This document shows, piece after piece, positions 4,473 to 16,157 of a stretch of 64,000 bases of DNA. The stretch lies in the NCBI RefSeq assembly GCF_000236585.1, contig NC_017278.1:992001-1056000 (forward strand), written 5' to 3'. The first letter of the stretch is position 1. Every line of letters starts with the position of its first letter. The stretch is from Thermus sp. CCB_US3_UF1. Lineage in GTDB: Bacteria; Deinococcota; Deinococci; Deinococcales; Thermaceae. The notes below the pieces were generated by a model. It worked only from the letters and a program-made list of their open reading frames with translations. It was not told where the DNA came from and searched no databases. Position numbers and translations under genes: made by a program.

Positions 4473-5729
4473 CTACCCTCGGAGGAGACCCTGGGCCAGG
4501 GCCAGGTAGCGGCGCCTTGCCCTTTCCAGGTCCACCACGGGGTTCAGGGGGGTGTAGGAGGGGTACTCGGGGGCCCAGCGGGCCAGCCACTCCCCCTGGG
4601 GGTCGTGCCGCTTGCCCTGTTCTACCAGGTTGAAGACGCGGAAGTAAGGGGCCGCATCCACCCCCAGCCCCCCCGCCCATTGCCAGCCCTGGAGGTTTTG
4701 CGGCGTGTCCCCGTCCAGGAGGAGTTCCTTGAAGTGGGCCTCGGCCTTCCGCCAGGGGAGGAGGAGGTACTTCACGGCGAACTGGGCCACGCACATCCGC
4801 GCCCGGTTGGAGAGGAAGCCCGTGGCCCAGAGCTCCCGCATGGCCGCGTCCACCAGGGGCACCCCCGTCTTGCCCAGGAGCCAGGCCTGGAAAAGCTCCT
4901 CGTCCTCGTTCCAAGGAAGGGCCTCGAGGCGGGGGTCCAGGGGTTTTTCCCTTAGCCAAGGGAAGTGGTAGAGGAGGTGGTAGGAGAAGTCCCGCCAGAG
5001 GAGCTCGGCCACCCACTTCCTGGCTCCTTCCCCCCCGGCCTGCAGGGCGGGCCAGGCGGCCTGGCGGGGGGAGAGGACCCCCAGGGTGAAGTAGGGGGAG
5101 AGCCTCGAGCCTCCCTGCCCATCCAGGCGGTCCCGCCTTGCGGCGTAGGGGCCAAGCCCTTCCTGGAGAAAACGCCGGAGGCGCTCCAGGGCCGCTTCCT
5201 CCCCGGGAGGGGGCAAGGGGATGCCCGCCTCCTCCCGGGGGATTTCCCCCTCCTCGGGGGCGGGGGGGAGGCTTTCCGGCGGGGGGAGGGGAGGGTCTAC
5301 CCCCTGGAAGTTCCGGCTGAAGGGGGTATAGACCCGGTAGGCCCGGGGCAGGTCCGGGGGGATGAGGTGGGGGGCGGGGAGGAGGTGGAGGGGCACGGGA
5401 AGGGCCTCCTGCACCCGTTCGTCCCGGTGGCGGCCATAGGGGGTGTAGGCCTTGAGGGCGTAGACCCCCCGGGCCCGCAGGGCCCGGGCCGCCTCGGGCA
5501 CCTTCTCCCAGGGCAGCCCCTCCAGGACCCAAAGGGCCCCGCCCCGTTTTCGGTAGGCTTCCCTTAGGGCCCGGACGTTTTCCAGGAACCAGGCCCGCCG
5601 CCTGGGGGTGGTCCTCAGGTTGTTGGGGTCCAGGACCACCAGGCCCACCAGGGGGCCTTGGCGTAGGGCCTTAAGAAGGGCCGGGTGGTCGCCTAGGCGC
5701 AGGTCGGCCCGGTGCCAGACCAGGAACAT
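4473..5729 (-). CDS. phr: Deoxyribodipyrimidine photolyase (CPD photolyase)
   Basis: 418 residues, near the length of the well-studied T. thermophilus enzyme (420). N-terminal Rossmann-type antenna domain (MFLVWHRADLRLGDHPAL) and C-terminal FAD domain with GKTGVPLVDAAMRELWATGF, NRARM and QWAGGLGVDAAPYFRVFNP. It repairs cyclobutane pyrimidine dimers using blue or near-UV light. It lies 25 bases after crtB in what looks like a crtB-phr operon, next to the light regulator carH, so repair and carotenoid protection are probably induced together. Confidence 0.93.
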   Translation of the reverse strand: MFLVWHRADLRLGDHPALLKALRQGPLVGLVVLDPNNLRTTPRRRAWFLENVRALREAYRKRGGALWVLEGLPWEKVPEAARALRARGVYALKAYTPYGRHRDERVQEALPVPLHLLPAPHLIPPDLPRAYRVYTPFSRNFQGVDPPLPPPESLPPAPEEGEIPREEAGIPLPPPGEEAALERLRRFLQEGLGPYAARRDRLDGQGGSRLSPYFTLGVLSPRQAAWPALQAGGEGARKWVAELLWRDFSYHLLYHFPWLREKPLDPRLEALPWNEDEELFQAWLLGKTGVPLVDAAMRELWATGFLSNRARMCVAQFAVKYLLLPWRKAEAHFKELLLDGDTPQNLQGWQWAGGLGVDAAPYFRVFNLVEQGKRHDPQGEWLARWAPEYPSYTPLNPVVDLERARRRYLALAQGLLRG

Positions 5730-5754: not shown

Positions 5755-6603
5755 CTAGGTTTCCGTAGCCGGGAACCCGTTTCGGGAAAGCCGCAGGGCC
5801 TCGGGCAGGAGCCTGAGCCTTTCCCAGGGCTTGAGGTGGGCCCGCCTCCGCAGGTTGTCGTAGCCGGATAGGCGGAGCTTATCCAGGATGCCTTGGTACT
5901 GCAGGGCGGCCAAGGCGATGGCCGCCTGGCCCACCTTCAGCTCCTTGAGGCCGGCAAGCCCCTCCCGGTAGAACCGGCGGGCCAGGGCCTCCAGGTGCCC
6001 CATGAGGGCCCGGTAACCGGGTCCGGTCCGGCCCAGGCGTAACTCCTCCAGGCTCACCCCGAAGCGTTCCAGGAGATCCTGGGGCAGGTAGACCCGGTCC
6101 TGGGCCAGGTCCTCCCCCACGTCCCGCAGGATGTTGGTGAGCTGCATGGCCTGGCCCAGACGCACCGCCTTTTCCTCCACCTCCGGGCCCCCGCCGGCGA
6201 TGGGGGCCATCATCCGCCCCACGGTGCCCGCCACCTGGTAGCAGTAGGTGAGGAGTTCGGCTTCCGTCCCGAGGCGCACCGGCCCCAGGTCCCGCAGGAA
6301 GCCCTCGTACATGTGGCGGAAGGCCTCTTGGGGGATGGGCCAGCGGGCAAGGGCCCAGGCCAGCCCCCTTTCCCAGGCCGTCTGGGGCCTGCCCCCGTAG
6401 GCCCGCTCCACCCCCTGCCACCAGGCCTCCAGGGCCTCCCGGCCAGCCCCGGGCCCGTCCACCGCCTCGTCCCCCAGGCGGCAGGCGGCGTAGACCGCCC
6501 AGGCCCCCTTGCGCTCCTCCTTGGGGAAGAGGAGGCTCCCCAGATAGAAGGTGGCGGAATGGGCTCGCACAATACCCGCCAGGGCTTTCCAATCGGGTTC
6601 CAT
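5755..6603 (-). CDS. crtB: Phytoene synthase CrtB
   Basis: 282 residues. Condenses two geranylgeranyl diphosphates to phytoene, the first committed carotenoid step. Both aspartate-rich metal motifs are seen: LGDEAVDG (about 59-66) and QLTNILRDVGED (about 150-161). Start ATG 6603 is preferred over an in-frame ATG 51 bases further up because AGAAGG sits just before it and because MEPDWKALAGIVRAHSATF is the usual N-terminus. It is divergent from carH across 111 bases; its -10 is TATCCT at 6619-6624 with a weak -35. Confidence 0.93.
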   Translation of the reverse strand: MEPDWKALAGIVRAHSATFYLGSLLFPKEERKGAWAVYAACRLGDEAVDGPGAGREALEAWWQGVERAYGGRPQTAWERGLAWALARWPIPQEAFRHMYEGFLRDLGPVRLGTEAELLTYCYQVAGTVGRMMAPIAGGGPEVEEKAVRLGQAMQLTNILRDVGEDLAQDRVYLPQDLLERFGVSLEELRLGRTGPGYRALMGHLEALARRFYREGLAGLKELKVGQAAIALAALQYQGILDKLRLSGYDNLRRRAHLKPWERLRLLPEALRLSRNGFPATET

Positions 6604-6618
6604 ATGCCTTCTAGTTTC

Positions 6619-6624
6619 AGGATA
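6619..6624 (-). promoter_or_regulatory. -10 element of crtB-phr (putative)
   Basis: Minus-strand TATCCT, 15 bases before the crtB start with an AGAAGG Shine-Dalgarno between them. The hexamer 17 bases upstream reads GGACAA, a poor -35. In T. thermophilus the crtB promoter is reported to need the CRP-family factor TTHB099, whose homolog is encoded at 7548-8135. The dependence here is inferred. Confidence 0.45.
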
Positions 6625-6667
6625 CCACCTGGGAGGGACTTTTGTCCTGCCCACACTTGGGTAAGAC

Positions 6668-6696
6668 CTGTACTAATACTTGACAAAACTTGTTCA
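6668..6696 (+). promoter_or_regulatory. Putative CarH/LitR operator at the carH promoter
   Basis: Three similar words follow one another at about 10-12 base spacing: CTGTAC (6668), CTTGAC (6679) and CTTGTTC (6689). CarH tetramers are known to bind tandem direct repeats of about 11 bp overlapping the -35. The core GACAAAACTTGTTCA (6682-6696) recurs with two mismatches at 15321-15335 between the rhodopsin and blh genes. Confidence 0.55.
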
Positions 6697-6714: not shown

Positions 6715-7551
6715 ATGACCCGGCCAGGGGTGTACACCATCGCCGAGGTAGAGGCCATGACCGGCCTCTCCGCCGAGGTCCTCCGGCAATGGGAGCGGCG
6801 CTACGGTTTTCCCCGCCCTGAGCGTACCCCCGGGGGACACCGCCTCTACCGGGAGGAGGAGGTGGAGGCCTTACGCCAGATCCGCCGCTGGCTGGAGGAG
6901 GGGGCAACCCCCCAGGCGGCCATCCGCCGCTACCTGGCCCAGGAAACCCATCCCCAGGACCTTTCCCAGGAGCTCAAGGCCGCCCTCCTCGAGGCCGACC
7001 TCCCCCGGGCCGAGGCCCTCTTCCGCCGGGGGCTTAGGCTCTTGGGCCCGGAAGGGGCGGCCCAGGGGCTCGTGGTCCGGGTTCTGCGGGAGGTGGGGGA
7101 AGGCTGGCACCAGGGGGAGGTGAGCGTAGCCCAGGAGCATCTGGCCACCCAGTTCCTGCGGGCCCGCCTGCACGAGCTTCTGGACCTGGTGGGCTACCCT
7201 CGTGGGGCCCCCATCCTGGTCACCACCCCCCCGGGGGAGCGGCACGAGCTCGGGGCCATGCTGGCCGCCTACCACCTGCGCCGCCGCGGTTTCCCTGCCC
7301 TGTACCTGGGCCCCGACACCCCCTTGCCTGACCTGCGGGCCCTAGCCGCCAAGCTGGAGGCCAGGGGGGCCGTCCTCTCCGTCCTCCTTAGGGAAAACCT
7401 CCAGGCCCTGCCTGCTGGGGCCCTGCAGGACCTGGCTCCCCGGGTCTTCCTGGGCGGTCCCGGGGCCAGCCTCGAGGAGGCCAGGCGCCTGGGGGCGGTG
7501 TACGTGGAACGGTTGGAGGATCTGCCCAAGGCATTGGAGGAGGCAGCATGA
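6715..7551 (+). CDS. carH: CarH/LitR, B12-dependent light-sensing MerR-family repressor
   Basis: 278 residues. Residues 7-75 are a MerR-type winged helix ([28 protein letters not shown]). Residues about 85-270 form the four-helix bundle and cobalamin-binding domain. The photoreceptor set is intact: W131, H132, E141, H142 (W-x9-EH) and the lower-axial ligand H177 in ERHELG, at the same numbers as T. thermophilus CarH. With adenosylcobalamin in the dark the tetramer represses; light breaks the Co-C bond and releases DNA. Its stop overlaps the start of the CRP-family gene (ATGA), so both are derepressed together. In Thermus this leads to crtB-phr induction. Confidence 0.95.
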
Positions 7552-8135
7552 AAAGGATTGCCCGCAAGGAAGTGGTCTATCTGGCTGGGGACCGGGCCGA
7601 CACCCTCTACCGCCTGGAGTCCGGGCTGGTGCGCATCGTGGAACTCCTCCCCGACGGCCGCACCCTCACCCTGCGCCACGTCCTCCCCGGGGACTTCTTC
7701 GGGGAGGAGGCCCTGGAGGGGCGGCGCTACCGCTACGCCGCCGAGGCCATGACCGAGGTGGTGGTGCGGGGGTTTGAGCCCAAGGCCATGACCCATGAGG
7801 AGCTGCACCAGGTGGCCAGGAACCTGGCCCGGCAGATGCGCCGGGTGCAGGCCTACGAGACCCACCTGCAGACGGGGGAACTCCGGGCCCGCATCGCCCG
7901 CTACCTCCTCTTCCTGGCGGACACCCCGGCTTCCTTCCGCGACGCCAAGGGCCTTTACGTGACCGCCTCCCACGAGGAGATCGCCGACGCCACCGCCTCC
8001 ACCCGGGAGTCGGTCTCCAAGCTCCTTTCCGACCTGCGCCGGGAGGGCCTTATCGCCACCGCCTACCGCAAGGTCTACCTCCTGGACCTGAAGGCGTTGG
8101 AGCGGGAGGCGGAAGGGGTCTTGGAAGCCGCCTAG
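7548..8135 (+). CDS. CRP/FNR-family transcriptional activator (TTHB099-type)
   Basis: 195 residues: an N-terminal cyclic-nucleotide-type beta-barrel (about 10-110, with [12 protein letters not shown]) and a C-terminal winged helix with [20 protein letters not shown] (about 145-165). The T. thermophilus homolog TTHB099, encoded in the same position after litR/carH, activates crtB-phr in the light and works without an effector. Cotranscription with carH makes a cascade: light removes CarH, this activator is made, and carotenoid and photolyase genes are turned on. Target genes here are inferred from that precedent. Confidence 0.88.
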
Positions 8136-9000: not shown

Positions 9001-10198
9001 GGACCTCTTGGGCCTGGGGCCGGGCCTCGTTCTCCAGGCGGCAGACGGGGCGTAGGCGCAGGCCCAAGGCGGTGCCCAGGAGGGCGAAGACCCCCCAGAG
9101 GGGCCCGTGGAGGCTAAAGGAGGCCGTGCCCCCCAGGTAGGCCCCGATGTTGCACCCCCCGGCCAGCCTGGCCCCGTATCCCATGAGCACCCCGCCCAGG
9201 AAGACCCCCAGGTGGGTGGTCCAGGGGATCTGCCTTAGGTCCTTGAAGCGCAAGGCCCCTCCCAGGGCGGCCCCCAGGAAGGCTCCCAGGAAGAGGCCGA
9301 AGTTGGTGACGCTGGTGGCGTCCTTAAGTACACTCTCCTGGAGTTTTTCCGCAAAGGGCGGGTTGTGGAAAAGGGCCCAGTCCAGCACGGGAACCCCCAG
9401 GGCCTCGGCCAGCTTCCCTCCCCAGAGGGCGAAGGCCGCCGTTACCCCCCAGGGCCGGCCCAGGAGGAGGAGGATGAGGAGGCTGCCCAGGGCCAGGACC
9501 ACCGCGCCCCCCGCCAGGCTCCAGGGGCCGAAGAGGGGGTGGGTGGCCTCTCTGCGCAGGAGGGGTTCCACCTGGCCCCGGCGCTTTCTTTCCACCCAGG
9601 AGACGCCCAGGTAGAGGGCGGCCAAGAGGGCAAGCCAGAGGAGGAGGCCCAGGGTGGGGGAGGGGAACCAGGTGAGGGCGCTTCCCGGGGCCCAGGCCGG
9701 CAGGGCCTGCCAGAAGGGGAGGTGGTAGACCCCAAGAAGGGAGCCCACCATGAAGCCCAAAAGGACCAAGACCCCCCGGGTGTCCCCGCTGCCCGTGTGG
9801 TAAAGGGTGCCGGAGGCGCACCCGTCCCCCAGTTGCATCCCGATGCCGAAGAGGAAGGCCCCCACGGCCAGGGCCACCCCCAGGGGCACCACGAAGCCCT
9901 GGATGGGGGTTCCGAAGGCCTCCCCTTGGGCCAGGAAGGGGAAGAAGAGCAGGCTGGCCAGGGCGAAGAGGAGGAAGTGGGCCCGCATGAGGCGGCTTTC
10001 CCCGGTGAGGAGGAAGCGGCGGAAGCCCGAGGCAAAGCCGAACTTGGCGTGGAAGAGGGCCATGCCCAGGAGGACCGCCACCCAGAAGGCGAAAACAAGC
10101 CGGGGGCCGGAAGCCTGGTAAACCGCCAGGGAAAGCCCTCCCCCCAGGAGGAAGAAGGCCAGGAGGGGGAGGGGTTGGGGACGCGCCGTCCGCTCCAT
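8990..10198 (-). CDS. YeeE/YedE (TsuA-like) family transporter, probable thiosulfate uptake
   Basis: 402 residues and about ten to twelve membrane helices, two related halves. The conserved cysteine motifs of thiosulfate transporter TsuA are present: GDGCASGTLYHTGSG in the middle and AGGCNIGAYLGG near the C-terminus. TsuA relays thiosulfate across the membrane by SH-S hydrogen bonds to such cysteines. Start ATG 10198 is chosen over an in-frame site 93 bases upstream because a promoter (10206-10233) ends 7 bases before it. Substrate is inferred; other small sulfur species are possible. Confidence 0.78.
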   Translation of the reverse strand: MERTARPQPLPLLAFFLLGGGLSLAVYQASGPRLVFAFWVAVLLGMALFHAKFGFASGFRRFLLTGESRLMRAHFLLFALASLLFFPFLAQGEAFGTPIQGFVVPLGVALAVGAFLFGIGMQLGDGCASGTLYHTGSGDTRGVLVLLGFMVGSLLGVYHLPFWQALPAWAPGSALTWFPSPTLGLLLWLALLAALYLGVSWVERKRRGQVEPLLRREATHPLFGPWSLAGGAVVLALGSLLILLLLGRPWGVTAAFALWGGKLAEALGVPVLDWALFHNPPFAEKLQESVLKDATSVTNFGLFLGAFLGAALGGALRFKDLRQIPWTTHLGVFLGGVLMGYGARLAGGCNIGAYLGGTASFSLHGPLWGVFALLGTALGLRLRPVCRLENEARPQAQEVPST

Positions 10199-14459: not shown

Positions 14460-15242
14460 TTAGGCGGCCCTGGCCTCGGCCCCAAAACCCTCCTCTAGGC
14501 TCTTGGCCCGGGCGATGGCAAAGACCAGCAGGCCGTAGATGGGCTTGGCGATCAGGTCGGCCAGGCTGTAGCCAATCTGGATGGCCACCTCCTGGGCCGC
14601 GCCCCCGGGGAGCCAGGTACCCAGGGCGTAGGCGATGGGGTAGAAGCCCCAGGACATCAGGAGAACATACCGGGTGGCGTTTAGGAGCTCCAGCACCCTG
14701 GGGCCGAACTTGGCCTCACGGATGGCCTGGCCTAGCTCCACCCAGAGCACGTAAAGGATGTAGAAGAAGGGGATGGAGGAAAGAGCCCCCCAAAGGGTCC
14801 TGGGCCCGGCTTCGGTGTTCACCTCCCCCACGTACCCCAAGGCCAGCATGAGCACCGAGGCCACCACCAGCTTCAGGCTCAGGTTCCAGGTGCGGGCAGC
14901 GGTAAGCCCCAGGACCAGGATGAGCTCCAGGAGGAGGAGCGGTACGGTGAGGAGCCAGTCGGCGTAGCGGTAGAAGTCGTTAAAGGGCTTTCCCGTGGGC
15001 ACGTAGACCCCGTCCTGGAGCTGGTAGGCCCCGATCCAGCTTTCAAAGATCCGTAGGTAGTGGTAGCCGGCGATGAAGACGATGAGGGCCGAGAGGTAGA
15101 GGGCGATGTGGTAACGGGGGGCCACGTAGCTCCTCGCCAGGAGGAAGAAGACGAAGGCGGCCAGCATCCCAGCGATGGTTAGGGAGAGCATGTTGAAGAC
15201 CAACCAGTACTGTCCAAAGGTGAGTTCCGGCATCTCCCGCAT
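14460..15242 (-). CDS. Thermophilic rhodopsin, light-driven proton pump (xanthorhodopsin-like)
   Basis: 260 residues, seven helices. Start ATG 15242 is fixed by AAGGAGGT just upstream and gives the published numbering of Thermus thermophilic rhodopsin: proton acceptor D95, T99 and donor E106 (DTE motif of proton pumps), H61 paired with D95, and retinal Schiff-base lysine K233 in ADLIAKPIYG. At the place of bacteriorhodopsin W138 it has glycine (G152 in LWGALSS), the small residue that opens the window for a carotenoid antenna in xanthorhodopsins. Divergent from blh, which makes its retinal. Light energy would add to the proton gradient. Confidence 0.96.
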   Translation of the reverse strand: MREMPELTFGQYWLVFNMLSLTIAGMLAAFVFFLLARSYVAPRYHIALYLSALIVFIAGYHYLRIFESWIGAYQLQDGVYVPTGKPFNDFYRYADWLLTVPLLLLELILVLGLTAARTWNLSLKLVVASVLMLALGYVGEVNTEAGPRTLWGALSSIPFFYILYVLWVELGQAIREAKFGPRVLELLNATRYVLLMSWGFYPIAYALGTWLPGGAAQEVAIQIGYSLADLIAKPIYGLLVFAIARAKSLEEGFGAEARAA

Positions 15243-15296
15243 GGGTACCTCCTTAGGGGCCTGCCTGGGCCGTAGGCCAACTCCATTGGAAACCTT

Positions 15297-15325
15297 AAGG
15301 TACACTGAAACCTTTACTTAGACAA
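15297..15325 (-). promoter_or_regulatory. Putative rhodopsin promoter
   Basis: Minus strand TTGTCT (15320-15325), 17-base spacer, TACCTT (15297-15302), leader of about 50 bases to ATG 15242 with a strong AAGGAGGT ribosome site. The -35 lies within the putative CarH operator. Confidence 0.5.
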
Positions 15326-15335
15326 CACTTGTACA
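15321..15335. promoter_or_regulatory. Putative CarH operator between rhodopsin and blh
   Basis: GACAACACTTGTACA differs at only two of 15 positions from GACAAAACTTGTTCA at the carH promoter. It overlaps the -35 elements of both divergent promoters here, so bound CarH would block both. AT-rich matches of this length are unlikely by chance in DNA this GC-rich. Binding itself is inferred. Confidence 0.55.
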
Positions 15336-15358
15336 TAAAGCATACGCACCGCTACAAA
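15329..15358 (+). promoter_or_regulatory. Putative blh promoter
   Basis: TTGTAC (15329-15334), 18-base spacer, TACAAA (15353-15358), about 25 bases of leader before ATG 15390. No clear Shine-Dalgarno precedes the start. The -35 overlaps the putative CarH operator. Confidence 0.4.
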
Positions 15359-15389
15359 TGGGGATAACGGGGAAACAAAGCATGAGATT

Positions 15390-16157
15390 ATGCTGAGTGT
15401 GTACCTTCTCCCCTTGGCCCTCCTTCCCGAGAGCTGGGGGCAAGCCCTCCTCCTGCTTTCGGCCTTGGTTTTAGGGCTTCCCCATGGGGCTGCGGACCTC
15501 CTGGTGGCCCGGAGGCTAGGCTGGCCCCTGGCCCCTTTCCTTGGGGCCTACCTCCTCCTGGCCGCCCTCCCCCTGGCCCTTCTCCTCGCACACCCTCCCT
15601 TGGGCCTCCTAGGCTTCCTCCTCCTTGCCCTTTTGCACTGGGGCCGGGTGGAGGGAAAGGGCTTTCTCGGTTACCTGCGGGCGGGCACGGTCCTCCTTTT
15701 CCCCTTCCTTTTCCACGGCGAGGCCATCGCTCCTTTCCTGAAGGCCTTTGCCCAAGGGTTTGCCCTTCCTCCTGGGGTGGCCTTCGCCCTATGGCTTGGC
15801 CTTCTCCTACTGGCCCTTCGGGAGCGCCATTCCTTGAGGCTTTGGGGGGATACCTTGGCCCTGGCCCTCCTGGCCTTTGTGGCCCACCCCTATGCGGCCT
15901 TGGCGGGTTACTTCCTCCTGCAGCACAGCCTGGATAGCCTGCGCCTCGTGGGCGTGCGGGACCGGGAGTGGCTTGGCGTTTACGCCGCTACCTTGGCCGC
16001 CCTGGTCCTGGCCTTACTTCTCTACCCCCATTTCCAGGACCCCCTGGCCGCCTACATGGCCCTCCTCTTCGCCCTCACCCTGCCCCACGCCCTAACCCTC
16101 GAGGCCTGGCTGAGGCGGCCTCCGCTTCCCGGGCGATGGCCCGCGCCAGGTCGCTGA
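15390..16157 (+). CDS. blh: Brp/Blh-type beta-carotene 15,15'-dioxygenase
   Basis: 255 residues, about seven membrane helices. Conserved histidines for the non-heme iron: GLPHGAADLL (about 29-38), LHWGR, FHGEA, LQHSLDSLR (about 175-183) and LPHALTLE near the C-terminus. It cleaves beta-carotene, made by the crt genes 11 kb away, into two retinals for the adjacent rhodopsin. Divergent from the rhodopsin gene across 147 bases that carry a putative shared CarH operator. The last 83 bases overlap the opposing DUF2867 gene. Confidence 0.93.
   Translation: MLSVYLLPLALLPESWGQALLLLSALVLGLPHGAADLLVARRLGWPLAPFLGAYLLLAALPLALLLAHPPLGLLGFLLLALLHWGRVEGKGFLGYLRAGTVLLFPFLFHGEAIAPFLKAFAQGFALPPGVAFALWLGLLLLALRERHSLRLWGDTLALALLAFVAHPYAALAGYFLLQHSLDSLRLVGVRDREWLGVYAATLAALVLALLLYPHFQDPLAAYMALLFALTLPHALTLEAWLRRPPLPGRWPAPGR

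Follow-up and report, generated by a model that had tools for sequence, protein, structure and literature searches.

The stretch of DNA analysed here (the window) comprises 64,000 nucleotides from Thermus sp. CCB_US3_UF1. In its first third, two genes are transcribed away from each other. The minus-strand gene (14460..15242, with its ATG at 15242) encodes a rhodopsin of the thermophilic-rhodopsin (TR) type, a xanthorhodopsin-like proton pump (PF01036). Its closest solved structure is TR itself from T. thermophilus JL-18 (5azd; E 9e-161), which is 96% identical and belongs to the same proton-pump family. The plus-strand gene (15390..16157) is blh, encoding the beta-carotene 15,15'-dioxygenase of retinal synthesis (PF15461). 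Its product scores 106 bits against TIGR03753, above the curated cut-off of 95, and is thus classed as a Brp/Blh retinal synthase.

About 8 kb upstream of the gap between these genes lies the carH-ldrP pair (6715-8135), divergent from crtB and a photolyase gene. The product of carH (6715..7551, plus strand) is a B12-dependent light-sensing repressor that matches the NF052513 equivalog model with 499 bits (cut-off 400) and the structures 5c8d and 3whp with E of about 1e-126. It carries the MerR and B12-binding domains of a CarH photoreceptor, the Wx9EH motif, and the His-ligand motif ExHxxG. Its identity to T. thermophilus CarH, whose structure is solved, is 74% (64 of the first 75 residues), and all six of the other Thermus genomes with a rhodopsin have almost the same DNA-binding domain (65-73 of 75 residues). 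The co-encoded ldrP (7548..8135, plus strand; NF052518 equivalog) specifies a CRP-family activator. On the minus strand, crtB (5755..6654; PF00494) encodes phytoene synthase; these coordinates are from the first GTG, and the true start is probably an ATG near 6604. A DNA photolyase gene (4473..5729, minus strand; PF03441, PF00875) lies downstream of crtB. The neighbouring genes named in the original prediction agree with this arrangement.

CarH operators consist of tandem 11-bp repeats of the form nnnnTnnACAn, with the promoter -35 element inside one repeat (PMC9304148). T. thermophilus CarH uses three repeats, one of which contains the -35; operators with two perfect repeats plus degenerate ones are also bound, and Haliangium has mixed operators that are bound (PMC9304148). 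Such an operator lies at the window's carH promoter, at 6669..6696 (plus strand): TGTACTAATAC TTGACAAAACT TGTTCA. Every Thermus carH promoter examined has the repeats in a single register, beginning 46 bases before the start codon and retaining 9-12 of the 12 key bases. The carH-crtB gap also contains, at about 6636-6660, a crtB-side block that is kept across most Thermus (GGGACTTTTGTCCC followed by CACACT, in carH orientation) and is perhaps a site for a crtB activator.

A tandem array of the same form, TAGACAACACT-TGTACATAAAG-CATACGCACCG, occupies 15319-15351 in the gap between rhodopsin and blh. Its first two 11-bp direct repeats (15319..15329 and 15330..15340, plus strand) are perfect for TnnACA, and the third (15341..15351) is degenerate, with 2 of 4 key bases. 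The array therefore retains 10 of 12 key bases (4+4+2), which is the score of the window's own carH operator; in its 28-bp form it reads TAGACAACACT TGTACATAAAG CATACG (15319-15346).

The original prediction had noticed part of this array, reporting that a 15-base word between rhodopsin and blh agrees with one at the carH promoter in 13 of 15 bases. The match itself is correct: GACAACACTTGTACA at 15321-15335 and GACAAAACTTGTTCA at 6682-6696, both on the plus strand, differ at 2 of 15 bases and are the only matches to the word in the window with up to 3 mismatches. Shuffled sequences gave a mean of 0.14-0.28 matches, and two or more in 1-3% of shuffles. The register of that alignment does not stand, as it sets repeats 1-2 of the rhodopsin site against carH repeats 2-3, one unit off. 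In promoter register, repeat 2 of the rhodopsin site (15330-15335) corresponds to the carH repeat that contains the -35 TTGACA. The word amounts to two units of the 11-bp repeat and, judged by its sequence, is part of a multi-repeat CarH-type operator, so that the case was understated.

It had also been proposed that the site overlaps the -35 elements of both divergent promoters. Pairs of elements assigned by eye agree with this: a candidate blh promoter reads TGTACA-N17-TACAAA, with repeat 2 as its -35 and the -10 at 15353..15358, 17 bp past repeat 2, and a candidate rhodopsin promoter on the minus strand reads TTGTCT-N17-TACCTT, with its -35 at 15320..15325 and its -10, incompletely conserved among relatives, at 15297-15302. 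A strict sigma-70 scan of 15200-15420 returned no promoter, and the assignments are only plausible. This overlap raises the possibility that the conserved word is nothing other than the overlapping -35 pair of back-to-back promoters and resembles the carH site through a shared -35 sequence, since TTGACA itself fits TnnACA. The result of the strict scan argues against this explanation, as does the pattern of conservation across the genus.

Among the 27 Thermus genomes, the same 7 have full-length genes for both rhodopsin and blh, and five more retain remnants of at least one of the two (L014, L016-L019, L182-L185). In this distribution the pair acts as a single unit that has been lost repeatedly. 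In contrast, nearly all Thermus genomes contain a strong CarH match. No Thermus rhodopsin was found in plasmid records.

The repeats are kept upstream of rhodopsin in other Thermus genomes, a conservation on which the original prediction had staked its proposal. Repeat 1 is present in all seven gaps and perfect for TnnACA in six; the gap of G043 has no perfect repeat. In three of the seven (G027, G035 and G041) all three repeats are perfect and follow one another at intervals of exactly 11 bp, the third being TGTACA, an arrangement that a -35 pair would not account for. In the window and three further gaps the third repeat is degenerate. Mean agreement across the seven gaps is 45%, and the 17 bp spanning repeats 1-2 form the best stretch at 81% (equalled in 0 of 20,000 column permutations). 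Within these two repeats the key positions T, A, C and A are kept in 54 of 56 instances and the nn positions differ from gap to gap; T and ACA escape variation, whereas TTG does not. On sequence grounds, this pattern is the signature of CarH and not of a -35 element alone. Taken singly, four of the seven gaps are only weakly significant (P 0.02-0.07), and all such probabilities are guides and not exact values, the gaps being of common ancestry.

The rarity of the pattern was assessed by genome-wide pattern searches. When up to 2 mismatches are allowed, the three-repeat pattern of 28 bp has 15 matches on both strands of the strain's own genome, compared with 8 for the reversed pattern. Setting aside the carH and rhodopsin sites leaves 13, equivalent to about 0.0008 expected in the 146-bp gap. 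Among the 27 Thermus genomes, 38 matches with at most 1 mismatch are found: 21 at carH promoters, 3 in rhodopsin/blh gaps, and 14 elsewhere, which are scattered and recur only in the sister genomes G033 and G034. From these 14, the expectation for the seven rhodopsin/blh gaps is 0.0002 matches, against the 3 observed. Exact triples outside carH are confined in Thermus to the G027, G035 and G041 gaps and one locus common to two sister genomes, and the control gave 0. In G033 and G034 (L069:1501, L070) an exact triple, TGCACACAATTTTCACACATTTTGGACA, lies where a gene for an FAD-linked oxidase meets one for a GGDEF-domain protein. Arrays of TTATCCACA in Meiothermus, which resemble oriC, also match the three-repeat pattern; they were discounted because the reversed control matches there too.

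Rhodopsins of the Meiothermus type are about 60% identical and lie in another gene setting, with no blh match within the flanks examined. Three of their promoters (L009, L011, L012) carry triples with 11 of 12 key bases followed by a fourth partial repeat, a score that 500 shuffles attained once, once and never, respectively. In G011 the triple at the rhodopsin promoter is the genome's sole match with at most 1 mismatch. No repeats were found at L010 (175 bp of upstream sequence) or L013. They are likewise missing from G049, which represents a different genus of the same family, and from several more genomes with rhodopsins. A second TnnACA triple, common to two Meiothermus-type genomes (L214:1501, L215:1501), is flanked by an SDR gene and by one whose function is unknown and, from its sequence, is a possible further target of CarH.

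Upstream regions of 79 rhodopsins from named genomes were also scanned. About 9% of these loci reach P <0.05, little above chance, and apart from the Thermus and Meiothermus records L128 alone stands out. This locus, from the uncultured isolate O_MB67, a distant bacterium, has a perfect triple before its rhodopsin gene (9830-9990), and a crtI-like gene follows the rhodopsin. No other perfect triple occurs in this genome of 5.9 Mb, which has a gene for a CarH homologue as well, and the Wx9EH motif is present in that protein. Farther upstream of the same rhodopsin lies another array, a partial one, TGCACAAGGTT TGCACAAAGTA TGCACC. The recurrence of triples at Meiothermus-type and L128 rhodopsin promoters is again not expected of a -35 pair, and that explanation, although the repeats do overlap the likely -35 regions, is judged improbable.

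The observations comprise the repeats and how conserved and rare they are, the identities of the proteins, and the residues of the photosensor. The proposed link between CarH and this gap holds up well on sequence comparison, as the site has the published operator form, is kept in other Thermus, and recurs at Meiothermus-type promoters and one distant rhodopsin promoter. The favoured reading, with a probability of roughly 0.83, is that 15319-15351 is a CarH operator through which AdoCbl-bound CarH represses rhodopsin and blh in the dark and from which light releases it; binding, repression, light release and the exact promoters are all inferred. In the dark, a CarH tetramer would sit on the tandem 11-bp repeats and cover the -35 regions of this divergent pair of promoters, repressing rhodopsin and blh alike. 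Green, blue or UV light would break the Co-C bond, and the tetramer would fall apart. Rhodopsin and its retinal-forming enzyme would then be made along with CarH and LdrP and, via these, carotenoids and photolyase. On this sequence-level case, light probably switches on rhodopsin and blh jointly with protective carotenoids; the joint induction of carotenoids and photolyase would follow by analogy with published Thermus biology (CarH/LitR, LdrP, crtB).

A slightly less probable alternative than the -35 explanation is that LdrP is the main direct activator of blh and rhodopsin, through a TGT-N10-ACA site in the gap, while CarH acts solely through carH-ldrP. The LdrP/TTHB099 regulon shares the carH operon and the light-related control of carotenoids, and its motif is a palindromic TGT-N10-ACA (PMC7662524). 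Such a site lies over repeat 3 in the G027, G035 and G041 gaps (L004, L005 and L006), centred at about -42 from the blh start codon and agreeing with the TTHB099 motif at 13-14 of 16 positions (PMC7662524); the core is also present in G024. However, the core is absent from the window and two other gaps, the TTHB099 motif is not seen at crtB (PMC7662524), and the 11-bp TnnACA repeats would be left unexplained. LdrP was accordingly rejected as the main regulator in the window, where the gap has no TGT-N10-ACA. In the three gaps that carry the site, LdrP may add activation, and because the site overlaps repeat 3, CarH and LdrP may compete there. The least probable explanation, that the repeats are a chance resemblance or a relic no longer bound in this strain, could draw on the degenerate third repeat and on the decay of rhodopsin and blh in several Thermus genomes, but it is very unlikely given that both genes are intact in the window, that the site equals the carH operator of this strain in score, and that it is the most conserved portion of the gap.

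If the site is a CarH operator, it is of a known kind with a new target. The known operators (T. thermophilus carH, Bacillus megaterium, Myxococcales crt; PMC9304148 and the works it cites) are likewise 11-bp nnnnTnnACAn tandem repeats placed over the -35, tolerate degenerate repeats, adjoin carotenoid genes, and are served by an orthologous CarH protein. The targets differ: the known ones are carH itself and carotenoid genes, and in the window they would be rhodopsin and a retinal-forming dioxygenase across a divergent gap. In Dokdonia, Vibrio campbellii and Photobacterium, rhodopsin and retinal genes are light-responsive (works cited in PMC9040609), as proposed here, and the papers found on them do not describe a CarH operator. 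The TR literature that was found concerns structure and stability, and regulation is not described there. Searches of the open-access literature that paired CarH or LitR with rhodopsins, proteorhodopsins, Thermus and Meiothermus turned up no such control. The statement that a CarH-controlled rhodopsin had not been described before therefore holds for open-access sources, and a report outside them is possible.

Rhodopsin genes of the Rhodothermales type present a different arrangement. At L136, L143, L159, L163 and L164 a divergent gene about 150 bp upstream of rhodopsin encodes a regulator of about 290 residues with HTH_17 and B12-binding domains, which keeps the EH of Wx9EH and not the W. CarH-type triples were not seen in these gaps, and for that reason the regulators were not counted as support for the CarH link. 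A wider proposal, put forward tentatively and at somewhat under even odds, is that B12-photoreceptor control of rhodopsin phototrophy is general and has evolved repeatedly, with CarH operators in Thermus, the Meiothermus type and at least one distant bacterium, and a diverged regulator in Rhodothermales.

The known role of CarH is the switching of protective carotenoids, and to our knowledge the control of rhodopsin expression in bacteria is poorly understood. If rhodopsin and the synthesis of retinal are under its control as well, the harvesting of light and the protection from it would belong to a single regulon, set by one B12 photochemical event, and in hot springs the expression of rhodopsin would be tied to cobalamin. 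The control of rhodopsin could then be put to the test with a 28-bp site and a repressor whose structure is solved. Should the wider proposal be true, a single photoreceptor, responding to light and to the supply of cobalamin, would decide when another light-using protein is built.
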